DNA from: Desulfobaculum xiamenense
GTDB lineage: Bacteria; Desulfobacterota; Desulfovibrionia; Desulfovibrionales; Desulfovibrionaceae
Assembly: GCF_011927665.1 (NCBI RefSeq)
Contig: NZ_JAATJA010000002.1
Coordinates: 744,001-808,000, forward strand
Length of the DNA: 64,000 nt
Reading direction: 5' to 3'
Below the pieces are notes generated by a model. The model worked only from the letters and a program-made list of their open reading frames with translations, was not told the DNA's origin and ran no database searches. Made by a program: the position numbers and the translations under genes. Shown here one piece after another: positions 22,297 to 57,196 of this stretch (positions are counted from its first letter, which is position 1; each line of letters starts with the position of its first letter).

Positions 22297-24144
22297 ATGG
22301 CGCTTGGCGAACTGATGTCGGGGGCTGCACAGGTGGCGGCCATTTCCGCGCAGACGGCGTGGGCGGTCTTTTGGCTCGCGCTGGTCGTGGCGTGCGCCGT
22401 TGCGCTTGGCAGGCGGGCGCGGTGGTTCCCGCGCGTGCGGGGCCGAGTGCGGCTCGGCGGCGCGGACGATTTCCGCTGGCGCGAGCACGAGGTGCTGCGC
22501 CACATCATGGCGGCCACGCCAAGCCCGTTGTCCTTCATGGACGCCGGGGGGCGCATCCGGCTGGCGAATCCCGCCTATGAGGACATGGTTGGCAGATCGG
22601 CCGAGGAGATAATGGGGCGGACCGCCGTCGACGTGTTCCCGCCCGAGGCCGCCAAGGCCCTCATGCATATGGATGCGCAGCTTTTGACCAGCGACGGCCC
22701 GGCCGTCCTGCGGCAGGAACTTCGTCTGGAGGTGCAACCCGGCGACGTGCGCGACGTCGTCGTGACCAAGGAGCTGCTGCGCGACGCGCACGGTCGCACG
22801 TTTGGCGTGGTGGGCGTGTTCACGGACGTGACCGAGACGCGGCGGCACATGCGCGAACTCGTCGAGAATCGCAATCTTCTCGTGTCGTTCATCGATACTG
22901 TGCCGGACCTTGTGTTCTACAAGGACGCGCACGGAGTGTACCGGAGCTGCAATGCCGCGTTCGCCGCCTTCGCGGGCTGTGCGCAGGAGGAAGTGGTCGG
23001 GCGGAGTGATTACGAGCTGTTCGATGAATCGGTGGCCTCGTCGTTTCGCGAGCAGGATAGCGAGACACTCGCCACCATGCGGCCAAGCCTGCGCGAGGTG
23101 TGGGTGACGCGCGCTGACGGGACGCCCGCGCTCATGGAGGCGGTAAAGGTGCCGCTTTTGGGGGCGCAGGGCGATCTGCTCGGCATCGTGGGCATAAGCC
23201 GGGACATCACCCGTCGCCGCGCCACGGAAACCGCCCTGCGCAACGCCGAGGACGTCTATCGCAACATTTTCGACAACGCCAGCGAGGGGCTGTTTTCCAC
23301 GAGTCCACAGGGTCGCTTCCTGCGGGTGAATCGCGCCATGGCCGAGCTGTTCGGATACGATTCGCCAGAGGAAATGGTCGCCACCGTCAGGAACAGCGGT
23401 CGCGACATTTTCGTGCACGACGAGGAACGCAAGGCCATGCTGGAGCGCCTTGTGCTGGAGGGCGTGATCCGCAACATGCGCTTCAAGGCCCGAAGGCGCG
23501 ACGGAAGCGTCATGTGGGCCGGGGCCAGCCTGCGCGGCATCCGGACGGAGCATGGCGAACTGGTGAGCATCGAGGGCATCATTTCGGACATAACGGAGTA
23601 TGTGGAGGCCGTAAGCGAGATGGAGCATCGGGCGACGCACGATCATCTGACCGGCCTCGCCAATCGGGCCGTGTTCGAGGAGACTCTTGAGCGAATGCTG
23701 GCCCAGAGCGAGCGCTCCGGCGAGCGCGTGGCCGTGCTGTACATGGACCTCGACGGATTCAAGGGAATTAACGACACCTACGGTCATCAGACGGGCGACA
23801 CGCTTCTCGTTGCCGTGGGGCAGCGCATCTGTTCGCGGCTGCGACGCTCTGACCTTGCCGCGCGCCTTGGCGGCGACGAATTCGCTGTGCTGTTGTGGAA
23901 TGTCGCCGGGCGCGAGGCCGTGGCCTCCTACGCACAGGACGTGGTGGACGCGCTGTCGCGATCCTTCGACTGCGACGACGTGACCTGTCGCGTTGGAGTG
24001 AGCATCGGCGCGAGCATCTGCCCGGACCACGGCTGCGACGCTCAGACCCTCGTCCGGCTGGCGGACAGGGCGCTCTACCGCATGAAGGCGGAGGGCAAGG
24101 GCGGGTACCGCTTCGCCGATCCGGAGGCCGACGCGGAGGAGTAG
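22297..24144 (+). CDS. Membrane PAS/GGDEF diguanylate cyclase
   Basis: 615 aa. One transmembrane segment at about residues 17-38, then three PAS domains (about 64-165, 190-300 and 325-440) and a C-terminal GGDEF domain with the intact active-site GGDEF at 525-529. The inhibitory RxxD site (RRSD, 516-519) stands exactly five residues before it, so the enzyme is predicted to be active and subject to product inhibition. It makes cyclic di-GMP at the inner membrane. No EAL domain. It follows the mutase gene by 35 bases. Confidence 0.93.
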   Translation: MALGELMSGAAQVAAISAQTAWAVFWLALVVACAVALGRRARWFPRVRGRVRLGGADDFRWREHEVLRHIMAATPSPLSFMDAGGRIRLANPAYEDMVGRSAEEIMGRTAVDVFPPEAAKALMHMDAQLLTSDGPAVLRQELRLEVQPGDVRDVVVTKELLRDAHGRTFGVVGVFTDVTETRRHMRELVENRNLLVSFIDTVPDLVFYKDAHGVYRSCNAAFAAFAGCAQEEVVGRSDYELFDESVASSFREQDSETLATMRPSLREVWVTRADGTPALMEAVKVPLLGAQGDLLGIVGISRDITRRRATETALRNAEDVYRNIFDNASEGLFSTSPQGRFLRVNRAMAELFGYDSPEEMVATVRNSGRDIFVHDEERKAMLERLVLEGVIRNMRFKARRRDGSVMWAGASLRGIRTEHGELVSIEGIISDITEYVEAVSEMEHRATHDHLTGLANRAVFEETLERMLAQSERSGERVAVLYMDLDGFKGINDTYGHQTGDTLLVAVGQRICSRLRRSDLAARLGGDEFAVLLWNVAGREAVASYAQDVVDALSRSFDCDDVTCRVGVSIGASICPDHGCDAQTLVRLADRALYRMKAEGKGGYRFADPEADAEE

Positions 24145-28645: not shown

Positions 28646-31303
28646 ATGGAATATCCCGTCTGGCAGATTCCCTATTTCGGGGGCGGCATCCTCGTGGCGG
28701 TCATCGCCGTGGTGCATGTGTTCGTGGCGCACTTCGCCGTGGGCGGCGGGCTGTTTCTCGTGCTCACGGAGATGCTCGGGCACCGGCGCGCATCGCGCGG
28801 AATCCTCGACTACGTGCGCGGGCACACGCTGTTCTTTCTGCTGCTGACCATGGTTTTCGGCAGCCTGACCGGCGTAGCCATCTGGTTCATCATCGCCCTG
28901 ACCAATCCCGCGGCCACGCTCACGCTCATCCGCACCTACACCTTTGGCTGGGCCACGGAGTGGGTGTTCTTCCTTGGCGAGATCGTCACGCTATTGGTGT
29001 ACCACTACACCTTCGACAGCATGGAGCGCAGGCGGCACCTGCTGGTCGGGTGGCTGTACTTCGGCTTCGGCTGGCTGTCGCTGTTCATGATCAACGGCAT
29101 CATCGGCTCCATGCTCACGCCGGGGGACTGGGTGGCCACGGGCAATTTCTGGGATGGCTTCTTCAACCCCTCGTTCTGGCCCTCGCTGGTCTTCCGTTCA
29201 CTCCTGGCCTTCTCCATCGCTGGGCTGTTCGCCTTTCTGACGGCCATGCGCATCGAGGATGACGACCTGCGGCTGACGCTTACGCGTTTCGCCGCCATGT
29301 GGGCGGCGGTACCCGTGGTGCTCATGGCACCCGTCGCGTGGTGGTACTTCGGTGCGTTGCCGGAGATTTCGCAGGCCATGATTACGGGACGCAACAACGA
29401 GATCGCGCCGTTTTTGCGGGCCTTCCTCACCGCAGGGCCGGTGGTGGTCGCCGCCAGCCTGCTCATGGCCGCGCGCATGCCCCGTTCGCTGGGCAGCCTC
29501 GTGGCTGTGCTGCTGCTGACCGCCGGGTTCGTGCAGATCGGTTCCTTTGAGTGGATACGCGAGGCGGCGCGGCGGCCGTGGATCATCGTCGGACACACCT
29601 ATTCCAACGCCATAACCGTGGCCGATGTCGCACGGGTGGAGGCGGAAGGGTTTCTCAAGGTCGCCAAGTGGGTGGAGCATCGCGAGATCACCCAAGAAAA
29701 CCGCCTCGATGCCGGGCGCGAGATTTTTGTCAAGCAGTGCCTTGCCTGTCACAGCGTGGGCGGCCCGTCTAACGACATCCTGCCGCTCACGGCGAAATTC
29801 ACTGTCGTGGGCATGGATTCGCAGTTGAACGGACAGGGGAAGCTCAACGACTACATGCCGCCCTTCTTCGGCACGGAGGAGGAGCGCGGCGCTCTGGCCG
29901 CCTACATCGTGGAGACGTTGCATGGCGGCGCGGCGGAGGTGCCCCTCGCTGCGGAGGCTGTGCGCCGTTCGGGCGGTACGGTGGACGTGCCGCCCTTTGA
30001 TCCAAAGGCCGACGAATATGTGCTGCTGGCGTGGAACAACCTCGGCATGCACTGCATTTCGGATTCCGATCCCTTCTGGATTCTGCTGCCCCCGGCCAAC
30101 GACCTGTACTGTCAGTTGGTGCGCCGGGGCGAAACGCCGGAGCTGGTGACCGAGGGTGTGAAGATCACCTACCGCGCCGACGATGCCTTCATGAATCCTT
30201 CTGGCCATGTGCGCTTCTGGGCGTTTGCCGAGAGCCTGTTCGGCAAGCGGCTGGAAGCCAATGTGGGCGTTTCTGGCAATGGTCTGTCGGGAGAGATGCA
30301 TTTCGACGAGAAGCTCGGTGCGTTCGAGGCGGGACTCATTCCCGTGGCGCCCTATCCCGATGAGGGCGGGTACAACCCATATCCTCTATTTACTGTGGAG
30401 GCGCATGACGCGACGACGGGCGAACTCCTCGCCCGCACGCGGACCGTGGCACCGACGTCAACGGAAATGGGTTGCCGCAACTGCCACGGCGGCGCATGGC
30501 GCGTGGCCGGGGTGGCGGGCTTCACGGATGAGACATCGGCCGACGTGCTGGCCGTTCACGACCGCATCAGCAAGACCGATCTGCTTGCCACGGCCCAATC
30601 CGGGAAGCCCATGCTCTGTCAGAGCTGCCATCCCGATCCGGTGCTGGGCGCAGAAGGCAAGCCGGGGCTACTCAATCTGCCTGCCGCGCTACACGGCTGG
30701 CACGCCAACTATCTCACCGACCGAGGCGCCGAGGCCTGTGCCTACTGCCATCCCAATGCGGAGCAGGGTGCAACGCGTTGCCTGCGCGGCGTGCATGCCG
30801 AGCGCGGACTCGACTGCACGAACTGCCACGGTACGCTGGAGGATCACGCCCTGTCGCTGCTCAAGCGCGAGGACGAGCGGGGCGCTCCGGGAGCCAAGCG
30901 GCTCATGCGGCAGTTGGCTCCACGCGCCGTGGCGGGGGTAGCGGACGTGAATGCGCGCACGCCGTGGCTGGGTGAGCCGGATTGCCTGACGTGCCATGTG
31001 GATTTCCAGCCGCCGGAGAACGATGACGCGTTCAATGTGTGGACCGGGGACGCGACGGGATTGTACCGCATGCGCAGGGACGACATGGGAGCGCTCATGT
31101 GCGCGGCCTGTCACGGAAGTCCGCATGCGGAATACCCGGCAGTCGCCGACAGTGGGTACGGGGAAAATCGTGACAATATTCCTTCGTTGCAGTATGTCGG
31201 CAATGCCGGACCAATCGGTTCCGGCGGAAGTTGCGGCCTGTGCCATGTCGGAACCGACATGACCGCAGGAGATTCGGCCCATCATCCCAAGGGGTTCCGC
31301 TAG
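28646..31303 (+). CDS. Cytochrome bd subunit I-like protein fused to eight-heme c-type cytochrome
   Basis: 885 aa. The N-terminal 330 residues hold about eight membrane segments and the CydA-like motif HVFVAHFAVGGGLFLVLTEM (His24), a GWATEWVFFLGE segment with two Glu, and ITGRNNE. From residue 355 on, the chain is exported: a class I cytochrome c domain (CLACH at 365, Met in YMPPFF) and, after a beta-rich stretch (NNLGMHC), seven more heme motifs at residues 610, 658, 698, 724, 780, 819 and 863. That is eight CXXCH in all. It likely links membrane quinol or heme b to a periplasmic cytochrome chain. Direction of electron flow is unknown. Confidence 0.85.
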   Translation: MEYPVWQIPYFGGGILVAVIAVVHVFVAHFAVGGGLFLVLTEMLGHRRASRGILDYVRGHTLFFLLLTMVFGSLTGVAIWFIIALTNPAATLTLIRTYTFGWATEWVFFLGEIVTLLVYHYTFDSMERRRHLLVGWLYFGFGWLSLFMINGIIGSMLTPGDWVATGNFWDGFFNPSFWPSLVFRSLLAFSIAGLFAFLTAMRIEDDDLRLTLTRFAAMWAAVPVVLMAPVAWWYFGALPEISQAMITGRNNEIAPFLRAFLTAGPVVVAASLLMAARMPRSLGSLVAVLLLTAGFVQIGSFEWIREAARRPWIIVGHTYSNAITVADVARVEAEGFLKVAKWVEHREITQENRLDAGREIFVKQCLACHSVGGPSNDILPLTAKFTVVGMDSQLNGQGKLNDYMPPFFGTEEERGALAAYIVETLHGGAAEVPLAAEAVRRSGGTVDVPPFDPKADEYVLLAWNNLGMHCISDSDPFWILLPPANDLYCQLVRRGETPELVTEGVKITYRADDAFMNPSGHVRFWAFAESLFGKRLEANVGVSGNGLSGEMHFDEKLGAFEAGLIPVAPYPDEGGYNPYPLFTVEAHDATTGELLARTRTVAPTSTEMGCRNCHGGAWRVAGVAGFTDETSADVLAVHDRISKTDLLATAQSGKPMLCQSCHPDPVLGAEGKPGLLNLPAALHGWHANYLTDRGAEACAYCHPNAEQGATRCLRGVHAERGLDCTNCHGTLEDHALSLLKREDERGAPGAKRLMRQLAPRAVAGVADVNARTPWLGEPDCLTCHVDFQPPENDDAFNVWTGDATGLYRMRRDDMGALMCAACHGSPHAEYPAVADSGYGENRDNIPSLQYVGNAGPIGSGGSCGLCHVGTDMTAGDSAHHPKGFR

Positions 31304-42073: not shown

Positions 42074-43441
42074 ATGCTCACAGCCACCCAGAAACGCTTC
42101 CTCACCGACCTTTTCCCCGGCGACGCCTGCGTGCTCACGCCGGAGGAAACATGCGCCTTTGGCGCGGATTCCAGCCGCATCTTCGCGCAGCCATGGGCGG
42201 TGGTCCGCCCCGAAACCCTCGACCAGACGCGTAGCCTGCTCAAGTGGGCGCACGAGGAGCGCGTCCCGCTGTTTCCGCGCTCGCGCGGGACCAACGTGGT
42301 GGGCGACTGCACTCCCAAGGGCGGCGGCGTGGTGGTCTCGGCCCTGCGCATGAACCGCATCGTGGAGGTGAGCGGCGATGACTTCGTGGCCGTGGCGCAG
42401 CCCGGCGTGGTCACTGCCGATCTCCAGCGCGCCTGCGAGGCCAAGGGCCTTTTCTACCCGCCTGACCCCGCCAGCGTGCGTATTTCGACCATCGGGGGCA
42501 ACGTGTCCACCAATGCGGGGGGCATGCGGGCCGTGAAGTACGGCGTCACGCGCGACTATGTGCTGGGGCTTGAGGCCGTGCTGCCCGGTGGCGAGGTGAT
42601 TCGCACGGGCGGGCGTACGCACAAGAACGTAGTGGGGCTGGACCTGACGCGGCTCTTCGTGGGTGCGGAGGGCACGCTTGGCTTCATCACCGAGGTGACG
42701 CTGAAGCTCCTGCCACGTCCCGAAGCGTCGGCCTCTGTGCTGGCTGGGTTCGCTGCGCTGGAAGCGGCGCTCGACGCCGCGCGCGACGTGTTCCGCGCGG
42801 GCATCCTGCCCGTGGCCATGGAATTCATGGCCGACGAGGTGCTGCGCGCGTTGGCGAAGGTCACGGATGCGCCGTGGCCGCAGGGCACGCAGGCCGTGCT
42901 GCTGCTCAAGCTCGACGGCAGCGGCGAGACCCTGCCGCTGGAACTCAAACGGCTGGAGACGGCGCTTGCGCCTTCGTCGCCGTCGTTCATGGCCCGGGGC
43001 ATGGGCGCGGATGAGGAAGCCCTGTGGGAGGTTCGTCGGCTCATCAATCCCGCGTCGTTTCGTGTCGCGCCGGACAAGATGAGCGACGATGTGACCGTGC
43101 CGCGTGGGCGCGTGGCCGAGGCCGTGGCACGCATCCGCGATGCGGGACGCGAGGCCGGGCTGACGGTGCTCGTGTTCGGGCATCTGGGCGACGGGAACCT
43201 GCATGTGAACATCATGCACGACGCGGCGGGCGGCGAGGGCGAGCGGGCGCGGACCCTGAAGGAAACGGTGCTCGGCATCGTCCTCGACGTGGGGGGGACC
43301 ATGTCCGGCGAGCACGGGGTGGGCCTGACCAAGCGTCCCTACATCGACAGGCAGATCGGGGGACGCGAGCTGGAGATCATGCGGCAGGTGAAGGCAGTTT
43401 TCGACCCGCATGGGATTCTCAATCCCGGCAAGGCATACTGA
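42074..43441 (+). CDS. FAD-linked oxidase, GlcD/D-lactate dehydrogenase family
   Basis: 455 aa, paralogous to the D-LDH at 9203. FAD_binding_4 domain (FPRSRGTNVVGD; PPDPASVRISTIGGNVSTNAGG), cap domain with GHLGDGNLHVN and GEHGVGLTKRPYI. It should oxidise a 2-hydroxy acid (lactate, glycolate or similar); substrate not readable. No iron-sulfur subunit follows immediately; a GlcF-like gene appears only at 46518, beyond five other genes. Confidence 0.92.
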   Translation: MLTATQKRFLTDLFPGDACVLTPEETCAFGADSSRIFAQPWAVVRPETLDQTRSLLKWAHEERVPLFPRSRGTNVVGDCTPKGGGVVVSALRMNRIVEVSGDDFVAVAQPGVVTADLQRACEAKGLFYPPDPASVRISTIGGNVSTNAGGMRAVKYGVTRDYVLGLEAVLPGGEVIRTGGRTHKNVVGLDLTRLFVGAEGTLGFITEVTLKLLPRPEASASVLAGFAALEAALDAARDVFRAGILPVAMEFMADEVLRALAKVTDAPWPQGTQAVLLLKLDGSGETLPLELKRLETALAPSSPSFMARGMGADEEALWEVRRLINPASFRVAPDKMSDDVTVPRGRVAEAVARIRDAGREAGLTVLVFGHLGDGNLHVNIMHDAAGGEGERARTLKETVLGIVLDVGGTMSGEHGVGLTKRPYIDRQIGGRELEIMRQVKAVFDPHGILNPGKAY

Positions 43442-43575: not shown

Positions 43576-44022
43576 ATGAATTTCGTCGTCGTCTGCGTCG
43601 TCATGCTGGCTGGGGCCATTGCCTTCAGTCTGTATGTGCGTGGGGCGCGGGCGCGCTACATAGCGCGGATTCAGACGCTTCGGCTTCAGGCACGGCGCAA
43701 GGAGACGGAACTCGGCGACGTGCGCAATGATTTGGCCGTGCGCCGCGAGAACGTCCGGCTACTGGAAAAGCAGCTGGAGAAACTGCGCTGGGAGGGCGAG
43801 CGCGAGAGGAGGGCTGCGGAAGAGGCGGCTTCCAATGTCGAAAAGACACCGCTCTCCGTTTTGCAGTCCATGGGCCGAATCACTGCGGAGGACCTTGCCC
43901 GGGCCGAGGAATTTCGCACTCGCAGCGGGAGCGAATCGACCATCGAGGAGATTCTCGTGCTGCTCGAAATCGTCAGCCCCGAAGAGGTGCACAGTGCCAA
44001 GGTCGCGGCGCGCAAGGGGTGA
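43576..44022 (+). CDS. Small membrane coiled-coil protein, cluster member 1
   Basis: 148 aa, no family recognised. N-terminal transmembrane helix (residues 2-20), a charged coiled coil (about 25-85, KQLEKLRWEGERERR) and a C-terminal module of about 50 residues (GRITAEDLARAEEFRTRSG ... IEEILVLLEIVSPEEVHSAK). The same module ends cluster members 2 and 4. It resembles the helical repeat of the MshEN/type II secretion ATPase N-domain, but the Arg-Leu-Gly used there for cyclic di-GMP is not present. ATG at 43576 with GGGGGAGTG upstream. Confidence 0.78.
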   Translation: MNFVVVCVVMLAGAIAFSLYVRGARARYIARIQTLRLQARRKETELGDVRNDLAVRRENVRLLEKQLEKLRWEGERERRAAEEAASNVEKTPLSVLQSMGRITAEDLARAEEFRTRSGSESTIEEILVLLEIVSPEEVHSAKVAARKG

Positions 44023-44058
44023 CGCCTCGCCGCGAGCGCGGGCGTGGGGAGGGCGTCG

Positions 44059-44493
44059 ATGACGGTGCTCTATCTTTCCGTGCTGATCCTGCTCTTCCTG
44101 TGTGCAGGGCCAGCCTACTACTCGCGGATGATCCGGGGTTACACCGACGCCATCCGCACGCTGGAATACGGCCTACAACAGCTCGATGACGAGCTTGAAG
44201 CCCTCAAGGCCGAGCGCGACGTGCTGATGGAGCGGGAGGAGGAGCTCAACAGCGAGCGCATCGCCCTCGTTCAGGCGGCACACGGGCTGGCCTCGTTCAC
44301 CGAATCCGGCGGGGCATCGTCCGCAGTGGAGTACCTGATGCAGTCCGGGAAGCTACGTCCAGAGGATCTCCAGAAGGCCAAAGACTTCAAGGCAGGCTCC
44401 CAAAGTCCTTACGAGCTGGAGGACGTCCTCGTCATGCTCGATCTCGTTTCGTCCTACGACATGGAGAACGCGAAGCGGAAGGCTTCGTCGTGA
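44059..44493 (+). CDS. Small membrane coiled-coil protein, cluster member 2
   Basis: 144 aa. Layout as in member 1: transmembrane helix (2-21), coiled coil (about 28-72, DDELEALKAERDVLMEREEE) and the C-terminal module (GKLRPEDLQKAKDFKAGSQ ... LEDVLVMLDLVSSYDMENAK). The start at 44059 follows GGGAGGGCGTCG. It lies 36 bases after member 1 in the same direction. Function unknown; an inner-membrane protein with a cytoplasmic rod is the plain reading. Confidence 0.78.
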   Translation: MTVLYLSVLILLFLCAGPAYYSRMIRGYTDAIRTLEYGLQQLDDELEALKAERDVLMEREEELNSERIALVQAAHGLASFTESGGASSAVEYLMQSGKLRPEDLQKAKDFKAGSQSPYELEDVLVMLDLVSSYDMENAKRKASS

Positions 44494-44743
44494 TCTGACG
44501 TCATGTCATCGCGCGTCCGGCGCTGTCGGCGCGGTCTCCTTTTCTCCTCATCGTTGCATGCGGTCCCTGTCGATGTGGCGGGTGTCTCGTGATAGCCCAT
44601 GGTATATCCGTCTGCTGAAACGGTGCTTTTGCATGATTGTTGTGTGCGCAATCATGGTGTGGCGATGATGGATGTTGCCTTGGCATGGCTCATTCACTAT
44701 TGTCGCCATGCGACGACTGCGCCGCGAAGAGGGGGGATGGTCC

Positions 44744-45007
44744 ATGGAAACGTTTGCCAGCATCTTTCTGGCTTTGATAAGTATCGGTTTTTCGCTGTTC
44801 CACTATACCTGCGTCCGTCGCGACTATACGGAGCGCATCAATGCGTTGAAGTGCGAGGTGCAGAAGCTGGAGGATGAGTATGTGTGCCTGAGCGCCGACA
44901 TCCGCTCCAGACGCCAGACCGTGGCCACGCTTGAACGCGAGGTGGCTGACTTCGAGCGCCGGGTGCCCGGCGGACGCCCGAAACGACGCGAGGCGGCCGC
45001 GCGATGA
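44744..45007 (+). CDS. Small membrane coiled-coil protein, cluster member 3 (lacks C-terminal module)
   Basis: 87 aa. Transmembrane helix (3-20) and coiled coil (about 28-70, LKCEVQKLEDEYVCLSADIR), with FHYTCVRRDYTERINALK resembling the juxtamembrane parts of members 2 and 4. The C-terminal module is absent; the chain ends in a basic tail. The start at 44744 has GAGGGGGG upstream. Its stop overlaps the next start as ATGA, so members 3 and 4 are translated together. Confidence 0.72.
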   Translation: METFASIFLALISIGFSLFHYTCVRRDYTERINALKCEVQKLEDEYVCLSADIRSRRQTVATLEREVADFERRVPGGRPKRREAAAR

Positions 45008-45465
45008 GCATCATGTGCACGGCGGCGGTGCTTCTTGTGCTGGGCGGCATCGGCGGCTTCTGGTTGTCGCGGGTATGCGCGGACTATCGGGCGGTGATGC
45101 GTGGGCTGGAGTTGGAGCGCATGCGGCTGATGGATCGCCTCTCTTCTGCGGAGCTTGAGCGCGACCGGCTGCGTGATGCGCAGGAGCAGCTGGAATGCCG
45201 GGTGGGCGTGCTACGCGACGAGCTTCAGGATTCCGCGCAGGTCACCGTCGCGCCCGCGAAGGGGCGGCCCGCTCCGCGCACGCCTGCCGAGTGGCTGGTG
45301 AGCGTGGAGAAGCTGACGCCGGAAAACCTGCGCAAGGCCGAGGAGTACCGACGCGGAACGCGCACGGAACTGTCGATGGAGGAAGTCTTGATTCTGCTCG
45401 ACATGGTCAGCGCGCAGGATGTCCGCGCCGCCAAGGCCATGTTCAGCGGTCCCGCCGCTGGCTGA
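45004..45465 (+). CDS. Small membrane coiled-coil protein, cluster member 4
   Basis: 153 aa. Transmembrane helix (5-23), coiled coil (about 30-75, LERDRLRDAQEQLECRVGVL), a Pro-rich linker and the C-terminal module (EKLTPENLRKAEEYRRGTR ... MEEVLILLDMVSAQDVRAAK). The 3' end overlaps that of the convergent EamA gene by 23 bases. Of the four it has the module with the clearest two-helix periodicity. Confidence 0.78.
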   Translation: MSIMCTAAVLLVLGGIGGFWLSRVCADYRAVMRGLELERMRLMDRLSSAELERDRLRDAQEQLECRVGVLRDELQDSAQVTVAPAKGRPAPRTPAEWLVSVEKLTPENLRKAEEYRRGTRTELSMEEVLILLDMVSAQDVRAAKAMFSGPAAG

Positions 45466-46333: not shown

Positions 46334-46517
46334 TTCTGTATCCTGCATGGTGTCGGTTGAGTAGACGCTCGGGTATCGAGGTCTATATCCCGCATCACGG
46401 TATGTCCAGCCTTTCCTAGGAATGTGCGCGGGTTCATTGACGACCGCCACCCTCGGTCTTATTGTCCTGCATTGCGCCGCCCTTTTCCCCGCATTTCCGC
46501 CCGGCGCATCCACCCGC

Positions 46518-47720
46518 ATGACTGACGAAGACAAGGTAACCCAACAGGCCGAGGGCCGAAACGAACCCCAGTGCATCCTCTGCGGACGCTGCCTTGAGGT
46601 GTGCCCGCTGGTGGCCGCCACAGGACGGGAGGAGCTTGGCCCACGCGGCAAGATGCTGTTGCTCCTCCGCCTGCGCGAGGCTCCGCAGACGCTTTGCGAG
46701 GATGACGCGGCGCGTCTGGCGTCCATGTGTCTGTCCTGCGGACGCTGCGCGAAGGTTTGCCCCCAGAAGGTGAATGTGCCCCTCGCCGTGGCCCGCGTCC
46801 GGCAGGCGCATCCGGGCTTCGCACGCTGGCTGTGGAAGGCGTGGATCGGCTCGTCGCGCCTGTCGTGGCCTGCCGCCGCGCGCCTTGGCCGGGCGGCGGT
46901 GCGCCTTGCTCCCGCTGGGAGCGAATCCCGCGCTGCACGGACGCTGCGCAGCCTTTCGGCCATGGCCGCCGAGGAGACGGTGACGCCGTGGATTGTCCCC
47001 GATGTCGCGCCCGCTTGCGCTCCAGGGGAGAAGACCGTACTTTTTCCGGGCTGCCTCGCATCGAACGTGCGCAGACGCTATGTGCGCGCGGCCACGGCGC
47101 TCCTGTCGTGGTGCGGTGCGGAGGTCGAGTCCATGCCGGATTTCGGCTGCTGCGGGGGAACCCTCGGGCACGCCGGGCTCGGTGTCGAACAGGCCAAGGC
47201 CCGCGCCCGCAACGTGGCCGCATGGCGTGCCGCAGGGCGACCGCGTATGGTCACCTTCTGCGCCAGTTGCCATGCCGGGCTTGCCGAGTATGCCGCCGAT
47301 GCGACGCTGTTCGCTGACGCGGCGGAGGCCGCGGCCTTTGCCGCCGCGCTGGTGCCCCTGTCGGTGCTTGTGGCCGATGGCGGGTTTCGCGTGGAGGACG
47401 GCGGTCCGGCGGCGGTGGTCTATCATCGCCCCTGCCACGCTCCGCAGGACGATCCGGATGCCCGCTTGCTGCGCAAGGCCCTTGGTGGGCGACTTCGCAT
47501 TCCTGACCGTGCCCGCTGCTGCGGCATGGGCGGGGTGCTGCAACTTTCCGCGCCGGAATTGTCGGCGCAGGTGGCCGATGCATGCTGGGACGGGCTTGAC
47601 GCCGTCGAGGGGACCGTGGTCCTCACCGGGTGCAGCGGCTGCGTGCTTCAGCTTGCGGCCTCGGCTCCACGGGGAGTCCGCGTGGCCCACTGGCTCGACG
47701 CACTGCATTTCGAGGAATGA
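46518..47720 (+). CDS. Iron-sulfur oxidoreductase subunit (GlcF-like)
   Basis: 400 aa. Two [4Fe-4S] motifs ([28 protein letters not shown]), then two CCG domains ([14 protein letters not shown] ... [19 protein letters not shown] ... [10 protein letters not shown]). Layout as in GlcF. The natural partner would be the GlcD-like protein at 42074. The start at 46518 begins just before the first cluster; the longer frame adds a stretch without homology. secA follows. Confidence 0.88.
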
Positions 47721-55701: not shown

Positions 55702-57015
55702 TCAATCTTTGCTGACGCGTTTCCTTTCGATATCCTCGGCAACCTTCTTCGCGGCATCGTCCTGCGGGTTGGGGCGTTCGTCCTCGGGCAGGTTTTCTGT
55801 GAATTTTTCACGGATGGCGGTGACGACGTCCCATATGGACAGGAAGCTTTCGACCACGTCGGGATCGAAGTGCGTTCCGGAATCCTCCTTGATGACCGTG
55901 ATGATCTTTTCGTCTGGCCACGGCGGCTTGTAGGTGCGTCGGGACGACAGCGCGTCGAAGACGTCGGCCAGTGCGCAGATGCGCGCGGCAAGGGGAATGG
56001 CTTTGCCAGAGAGGGGCTGTCCGAGGCTTTTCACCGTCCCGTGCAGGTCGCTCACGCGTCCGGGATAGCCGTTTCCGTTCCATTTCTCGTGATGGCGCAG
56101 GGCGATTTCTCCGGACATGGCGTCGAGCTCGGAGGTCGAGTTGGTGAAGAGTTTTGCCCCGAATACCGTGTGGAACTGCATGGTCGCGAATTCGTCGGGG
56201 TCGAGCTTTGCCGGTTTTTTGAGGATGGCGTCGGAGATGCCGACCTTGCCCACGTCGTGCAGCATGGCCGCGATGCGTATGTGATCCTTGAATTTCTTGA
56301 GCTCGTGTTCCGGCACGCCCTTGTTGAGAGCCCACTGGTGGTAGATTTCGGCCGAATAGGCCCCTACGCGTTGCACGTGCGCGCCTGTTTCCGAGGGGTC
56401 ACGCAGTTCGGCCATCTGAATCATACGCAGGATGAGTTCGCGGGTCATGATGGCGCGTTCTATGGCCACGGAAGCCGTCGTTGCGAAGAGCGGCAGGTAG
56501 TGCCTCGCCTCTTCGGAGAAGGGAACGGATTCCCCGTTGTCGTCCTTGGCATTGATGATCTGGATGACGCCCACTACGCTTCCCTGCGAGGTGGTGATGG
56601 GGAAGGTGAGGATGGAGCGCGTGCGGTAGCCCGTCTTGATGTCGAAGGCGGGGTTGAAGCGCACCGGCGAGTCCGCCGGCATGTCGTAGGCGTCGTCTAT
56701 GGCGATGAGCTCCCGGTGCCCGGCCGCGTAGCCCACGATGGAGTCGTCGTTCATGGGCATTGAGAAGTTGGCGTAGACCTCCTTGTTCACGGACGAGGTG
56801 AACAGGGTGTCGTTGTGGACGTAGCTGAAGCGAAGCCGACCATCCTCGACGAGGTAGATCGTGCCCGCGTCGGCGCGCGTGACCTTGCGCGCCCGCGTCA
56901 GCACGCGGTCGAGTATCGCGTCGAGGTCTTTGAGCTGGGCCAGCTCATCGTTCACGCGAATGATTTCGTTGACGATGTCCTCGTGCACCTTGGGGCACGG
57001 ACAGAGCTCGGGCAT
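55702..57015 (-). CDS. GAF/HD-GYP protein (putative cyclic di-GMP phosphodiesterase)
   Basis: About 437 aa. GAF domain (residues about 25-190; GTIYLVEDGRLRF) and HD-GYP domain (about 205-400) with HVQRVGAYS, AAMLHDVGKVGI, HHEKWNGNGYPGR and ALADVFDALSSRR. All metal ligands of the family appear present, so it should cleave cyclic di-GMP. The start at 57015 has GGAGG five bases upstream; ATG at 57057 would add 14 residues. It is followed by the kinase on the same strand. Confidence 0.92.
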   Translation of the reverse strand: MPELCPCPKVHEDIVNEIIRVNDELAQLKDLDAILDRVLTRARKVTRADAGTIYLVEDGRLRFSYVHNDTLFTSSVNKEVYANFSMPMNDDSIVGYAAGHRELIAIDDAYDMPADSPVRFNPAFDIKTGYRTRSILTFPITTSQGSVVGVIQIINAKDDNGESVPFSEEARHYLPLFATTASVAIERAIMTRELILRMIQMAELRDPSETGAHVQRVGAYSAEIYHQWALNKGVPEHELKKFKDHIRIAAMLHDVGKVGISDAILKKPAKLDPDEFATMQFHTVFGAKLFTNSTSELDAMSGEIALRHHEKWNGNGYPGRVSDLHGTVKSLGQPLSGKAIPLAARICALADVFDALSSRRTYKPPWPDEKIITVIKEDSGTHFDPDVVESFLSIWDVVTAIREKFTENLPEDERPNPQDDAAKKVAEDIERKRVSKD

Positions 57016-57196
57016 GGGGTCCTCCGCATGCTCACTCGTGACAATTCGAGCATCCATTGTAAGCCATGGGCGGGATGCGTCAAGAATGGCCTGGATTCAT
57101 GGACGCAAGGCCCGTGCGCTCTCTGGCAAATTGCGGTAATGCATGATAAAGACGAAACTCTGCCGGAGCGAGTCTGCCCCGGAATCATGAAGAGGG

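Follow-up and report, generated by a model that had tools for sequence, protein, structure and literature searches.

Four small genes stand in tandem on the forward strand of a 64,000-nucleotide stretch of the Desulfobaculum xiamenense genome, the whole of which is referred to here as the window. They raise the question of what kind of proteins they encode, and whether these proteins form a single system. An earlier interpretation of the nucleotides and their translated frames (the sequence-only reading) had described a tandem family of membrane-anchored coiled-coil proteins, most of them ending in a shared module, and had considered them a possible undescribed system with a role in signalling or secretion. 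The open frames confirm four tandem genes, here M1 to M4, and in each of them an N-terminal hydrophobic membrane helix followed by a charged helix.

A block of two cassettes

The block and its boundaries comprise the following features:

42074-43441 (+): glcD-like FAD-linked oxidase; upstream boundary, common to the same-site loci L020 and L081
43576-44022 (+): M1, 148 aa; transmembrane helix (TM), coil and MshEN_N-type module at 43840-44019; first gene of cassette 1
44059-44493 (+): M2, 144 aa; TM, coil and MshEN_N-type module at 44314-44490; second gene of cassette 1
44744-45007 (+): M3, 87 aa; short TM and coil, without the module; first gene of cassette 2
45004-45465 (+): M4, 153 aa; TM, coil and MshEN_N-type module at 45274-45453; second gene of cassette 2
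46422-47720 (+): glcF-like iron-sulfur/CCG protein; downstream boundary, followed by secA

The boundary genes were assigned from a shared neighbour order and from the domains of their counterparts. The same-place neighbour in genome G001 (L020:8434-9801) has FAD_binding_4 and FAD-oxidase_C domains; CCG and Fer4 domains occur in the L017 and L020 neighbours, and SecA domains are found in L017. A gene of EamA type lies on the opposite strand between M4 and the glcF-like gene. M2 starts with ATG and has the ribosome-binding site GGGGAGGG, and the frames of M3 and M4 overlap by 4 nt (ATGA). A promoter and terminator scan gave no signal above chance. Elsewhere in the window, an 885-aa frame at 28646-31303 (+) matches c-type cytochromes (cytochrome c7/c3, MtrC/MtrF-like and cbb3-type).

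The phylogenetic tree joins M1 to both M1-type copies from genomes G003 and G122 (support 98/88) and M2 to both M2-type copies of the same genomes (100/97), while M4 and a member from G001 are sister to the M2 clade (98/92). Because of this placement, the block is read as two tandem paralogous two-gene cassettes, M1-M2, in which both proteins carry the module, and M3-M4, in which one does. The idea of a four-gene system is not supported by gene content at the same glcD-glcF-secA site, where the four genes of G003 and G122 are M1-M2 twice and G001, of the same genus, has the M3-M4 pair alone. In view of the tree, the proposal that four different coils join in a single complex was abandoned.

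A known fold in an unnamed family

M1, M2 and M4 match one another with phmmer E-values of 1e-8 to 1e-16. They end in a shared module of about 55 residues, and 51 module sequences can be aligned over about 60 columns, so that the likeness noticed at first sight is beyond chance. M3 had been described as lacking the module and as translationally coupled to M4. The lack of the module and the 4-nt overlap are real, and the protein also belongs to the family, since its TM-coil part is matched by the family profile (E 1.2e-8, profile positions 1-83). A direct phmmer comparison links it to M1 and M2 in the same part (E 2e-4 and 2e-3), and its closest relative is a gene of G001 that likewise has no module (E 1.2e-5).

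The module has a known fold. A profile built from the 51 sequences (A5) was compared with the PDB, and PilF (1.3e-10), MshE (9.5e-6), PilB and XpsE were recovered first (range 1e-10 to 1e-3), all others being lower. The AlphaFold2 model of M2 has a mean pLDDT of 92.9 and contains helices at residues 2-81, 89-95, 101-114, 120-126 and 132-143; the isolated module reaches 90.7. In Foldseek, the first 14-16 matches are all N-domains of MshE, PilF, PilB or XpsE, with probabilities reaching 0.99-1.0 and E-values that are modest, as expected at 59 residues. Superposition of the module on MshE residues 7-63 with VIA-align gave a Z score of 9.8 and an rmsd of 1.3 A over 57 residues, compared with Z of at most 3.9 for unrelated folds. 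Residues 9-61 of MshE constitute the exact 53-residue cyclic di-GMP-binding unit (PMC5013675). The module likewise is compact, about 53 residues long, and folds into a four-helix bundle built from two 24-residue helical-hairpin motifs; it is a complete MshEN_N (T2SSE_N/GSPII) unit, not a new fold.

The MshE-related motif of NCBIfam is matched by 23 of 52 members (best 6.6e-9); on M1 and M2 the model NF053729 scores 13.6 and 14.2 bits, below its cut-off of 38. PF05157 gives no match for M1-M4, and neither Pfam nor NCBIfam places any of the four in a family above cut-off. No T2SSE ATPase domain is matched in these proteins, which are 87-153 aa long and in which the module is C-terminal. Pfam matches of the family that were driven by the coil or TM were set aside as identities.

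Relatives were gathered by comparing M1 with 39 related genomes and then a 17-row profile with 247 genomes of the order, in which relatives were found order-wide (best E 1e-48). With a 52-row profile (A4) and a threshold of 1e-12, matches occur in about 86 of the 247 genomes, distributed over 18 genera and four families (f1-f4). Presence within the order is patchy, and identity among members is low (about 10-40%). In a sample of 345 genomes from the phylum, full-length matches were found only in the window's own genome among the matches listed; the others are coil-only, or module-only inside mostly long frames. Three of the module-only frames were inspected. Two of them proved to be T2SSE ATPases, and in one of these Pfam recognises MshEN; the remaining frame, L090:1495-3204 (+) from another order of the phylum, encodes a protein that combines MshEN with a receiver domain. 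As the phylum matches listed elsewhere were module-only or coil-only, the TM, coil and MshEN_N architecture appears to be confined to the order within the order and phylum samples.

The literature searched contains no account of MshEN in Desulfovibrio, and MshEN together with coiled-coil and transmembrane segments was met only in a general review. The proteins constitute an unnamed family in which a TM, a coil predicted to be cytoplasmic and a probably ligand-blind MshEN_N unit form a new architecture of a known fold, not found described in that literature. The architecture and the fold of the family can be regarded as nearly certain. The sequence-only reading had named membership of the module in a well-known family as an outcome that would speak against it; profile and fold searches do place the fold in MshEN, a likeness that had itself been sensed from the rhythm of the residues. 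What lacks a name is the architecture, not the module.

The cyclic di-GMP site

In MshE, R9 and R38 stack on the guanines, and the backbone amides at G11 and G40 bind the guanine edges. Ribose and phosphate are held by Q32 and Q61, while several leucines, 10, 54 and 58 among them, lie packed against the bases; MshE with a mutated G11 no longer bound the ligand (PMC5013675). These contact residues (RLG...Q in both motifs) are almost wholly absent from the 51 modules. R9 is retained in 3, G11 in 2, L29 in 3 and Q32 in 1 of them, and in the second motif R38 is kept in 1, G40 in 4, L58 in 3 and Q61 in 2; positions 29 and 58 are now mostly charged. The hydrophobic core has been preserved, with L14 in 45, A28 in 42 and L43 in 36 modules, and positions 20 and 49 hydrophobic in 51/51. 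The loss of contact residues is specific to the family, because two ATPases of type II secretion or type IV pilus (T2SS/T4P) type in the same genome keep the motif: L028 has RLG...Q twice and L030 nearly so.

Binding of cyclic di-GMP has been lost in XpsE through changes at the same positions (PMC5013675). The GSPII-B domain of PilF binds cyclic di-GMP at 6 nM without the arginines (PMC11731258), and for this reason, that arginine alone is dispensable there, the evidence from sequence for lost binding is strong, not final. It is very probable that the module no longer binds cyclic di-GMP in the canonical way, and the suggestion that it takes part in cyclic di-GMP signalling is not supported by its residues. 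That suggestion had also drawn on GGDEF and HD-GYP genes in the window. Both are present by motif, a GGDEF frame at 22297-24144 (+) and an HD-GYP-like frame (LHDVGKVGI) at 55702-57057 (-), but they lie 10-20 kb from the block and nothing links them to it.

Stalks, partners and possible function

The net charge of 52 long members is -0.3 before the TM and +2.0 within the 15 residues after it, and 17 short members are similar. By the positive-inside rule, this bias predicts that coil and module are placed in the cytoplasm (N-out/C-in). The description of the charged segment as a coiled coil is retained because of the predicted 80-residue helix and the coil-type profile matches, not because of a strong heptad signal: the heptad periodicity of M1-M4 taken singly is weak, the observed power being reached by 56-253 of 1000 shuffles. 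The TM-coil stretch (profile positions 1 to about 75) is common to long and short members, so that the short form corresponds to the long form without its head.

Headed and headless genes tend to be neighbours on one strand, as M3 and M4 are in the window. A family-like same-strand neighbour is present for 41 of 58 full-length members and absent for 17; short/long pairs occur at 28-29 places among the 58, with the exact 4-nt overlap in 12. The short gene precedes the long one in f1 and follows it in f2-f4, which indicates that the pairing has outlived a change in gene order. Two tandem pairs are present in some genomes (L066, L072). As the two forms share the TM-coil stretch and are neighbours in either order, the heteromeric rods proposed from the sequence are plausible for the partners of a cassette. 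In genera g22 and g39, the place upstream is in some cases taken by a gene for a larger TM-coil protein (about 430-720 aa) that carries a long acidic tail. Proteins with such low-complexity tails are found directly upstream of a long member at L021:7155-9305 (+), L074:8899-11064 (-) and L077:7533-8831 (+); a Pfam search with one of them gave no match.

Clustering of the flanking genes of 31 loci and the window revealed only lineage-specific neighbours and no theme common to the order. In genus g8, the pair divergently adjoins a response-regulator/histidine-kinase gene and a receiver-DUF3369-HD gene (L063:5337-8089 (-), with the same place in L062, L064, L065 and L079). In f2-f4, a shared cluster with two PilT-like T2SSE genes, DivIC, TPR and FBPase genes adjoins the family on the opposite strand (L022-L024, L026, L027 and L075).

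In the explanation preferred here, each protein would be anchored by its single N-terminal helix, N-out/C-in, and would extend a continuous helix of about 80 residues (TM and coil) into the cytoplasm. Cassette partners might pair through their coils of equal length to give a hetero-oligomer, in which at least one protein would end in an MshEN_N four-helix bundle without cyclic di-GMP binding. This head could serve as a fixed protein-docking site and recruit to the inner membrane a partner from the cytoplasm or from a membrane machine. Computation supports the family itself, its charge bias, the gene pairing, the fold, the loss of ligand residues and the duplication of the cassette; the hetero-oligomer and the docking are inferences. 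A precedent for docking is the N-domain of X. citri PilB, which has no cyclic di-GMP motif and binds PilZ; important PilZ contacts in that complex are on the ND1 subdomain (PMC8389850). The absence of ND1 from the family counts against the precedent, and the lineage-varying flanks, the weak single-sequence heptads and the 17/58 members without a family neighbour count against the model. The full model of heteromeric membrane stalks presenting a protein-docking module is given a probability of roughly 0.5. A bolder formulation can be offered only tentatively: the two genes may constitute an undescribed, self-contained membrane scaffold, restricted to a single order among the sampled genomes, whose heteromeric coiled-coil stalks and repurposed nucleotide-blind MshEN head would hold some cytoplasmic machine in position at the inner membrane.

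A narrower version of the docking idea would make the proteins accessories of type IV pili or type II secretion, in which the module mimics the N-domain of the ATPase and competes for, or hands over, regulators or platform subunits. The MshEN_N homology of the module is to those ATPases, and in f2-f4 the two PilT-like genes are within a few genes of the pair; they are on the other strand, however, and f1, the window included, has no T2SSE neighbours, which leaves this version unlikely. Less probable still is that the proteins are membrane-anchored receptors which bind cyclic di-GMP, or a different dinucleotide, through unusual residues. The fold is that of a cyclic di-GMP receptor, the PilF example binds tightly without arginines, and in some lineages the gene next to the pair encodes a response regulator with an HD domain (L063) or a GGDEF-EAL protein (L019). 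These neighbours are lineage-specific, though, and the family has lost both glycines, both leucines (29 and 58) and both glutamines besides the arginines, including the G11 on which MshE binding depended. That the genes are fast-evolving paralogues with no conserved role, as their patchy presence and low identity could suggest, is very improbable, given that architecture, coil length, pairing and module core persist throughout four families and 18 genera in spite of that divergence and of the change in gene order. The least credible relationship is to bitopic cell-division proteins such as FtsB and FtsL, which are comparable in size with one TM and are echoed by sub-threshold FtsL matches on M1 and M3 and, for 5 of 52 members, by matches to DivIC, but the charge bias implies a topology opposite to their N-in arrangement with a periplasmic coil, M1-M4 have no curated match above cut-off, a genuine separate DivIC gene is present in the same loci (L024:8171-8455), and an MshEN head is, to our knowledge, not known in FtsB or FtsL.

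Fold and architecture together give a structural identity to hypothetical proteins that about one in three of the genomes sampled from the order encode. The closest curated model calls such domains cyclic di-GMP-binding, and for this family that inference is probably wrong. The family represents a clear case of ligand-site loss, its pairing of headed with headless stalks is conserved, and it offers a small system in which the docking targets of ligand-blind MshEN domains can be sought.

Several known systems share part of this design. MshEN_N of Vibrio cholerae MshE (PDB 5HTL; PF05157, NF053729) has the same 53-residue four-helix bundle, helix order and hydrophobic core; the family differs from it in having no cyclic di-GMP-contact residues, MshEN_C subdomain or ATPase, and in placing the unit on a membrane-anchored coil. 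FtsB/DivIC and FtsL are likewise short one-TM coil proteins that pair with another, but have the opposite predicted topology and no MshEN module. The GSPII-A domain of Thermus PilF is an MshEN-type domain that does not bind cyclic di-GMP; its motif deviations are only small, and it is part of an ATPase. The ND0/ND1 region of Xanthomonas citri PilB (PDB 7LKM) has a motif-less MshEN_N-type subdomain within a protein-docking domain, but it includes ND1 and belongs to a pilus ATPase. The N-domain of XpsE/GspE (PDB 2D27, 2D28) has the MshEN_N fold and has lost binding, with changes at G11, L29, R38, G40, L58 and Q61; it belongs to an ATPase of type II secretion, is not membrane-anchored and has no headless-stalk partner.
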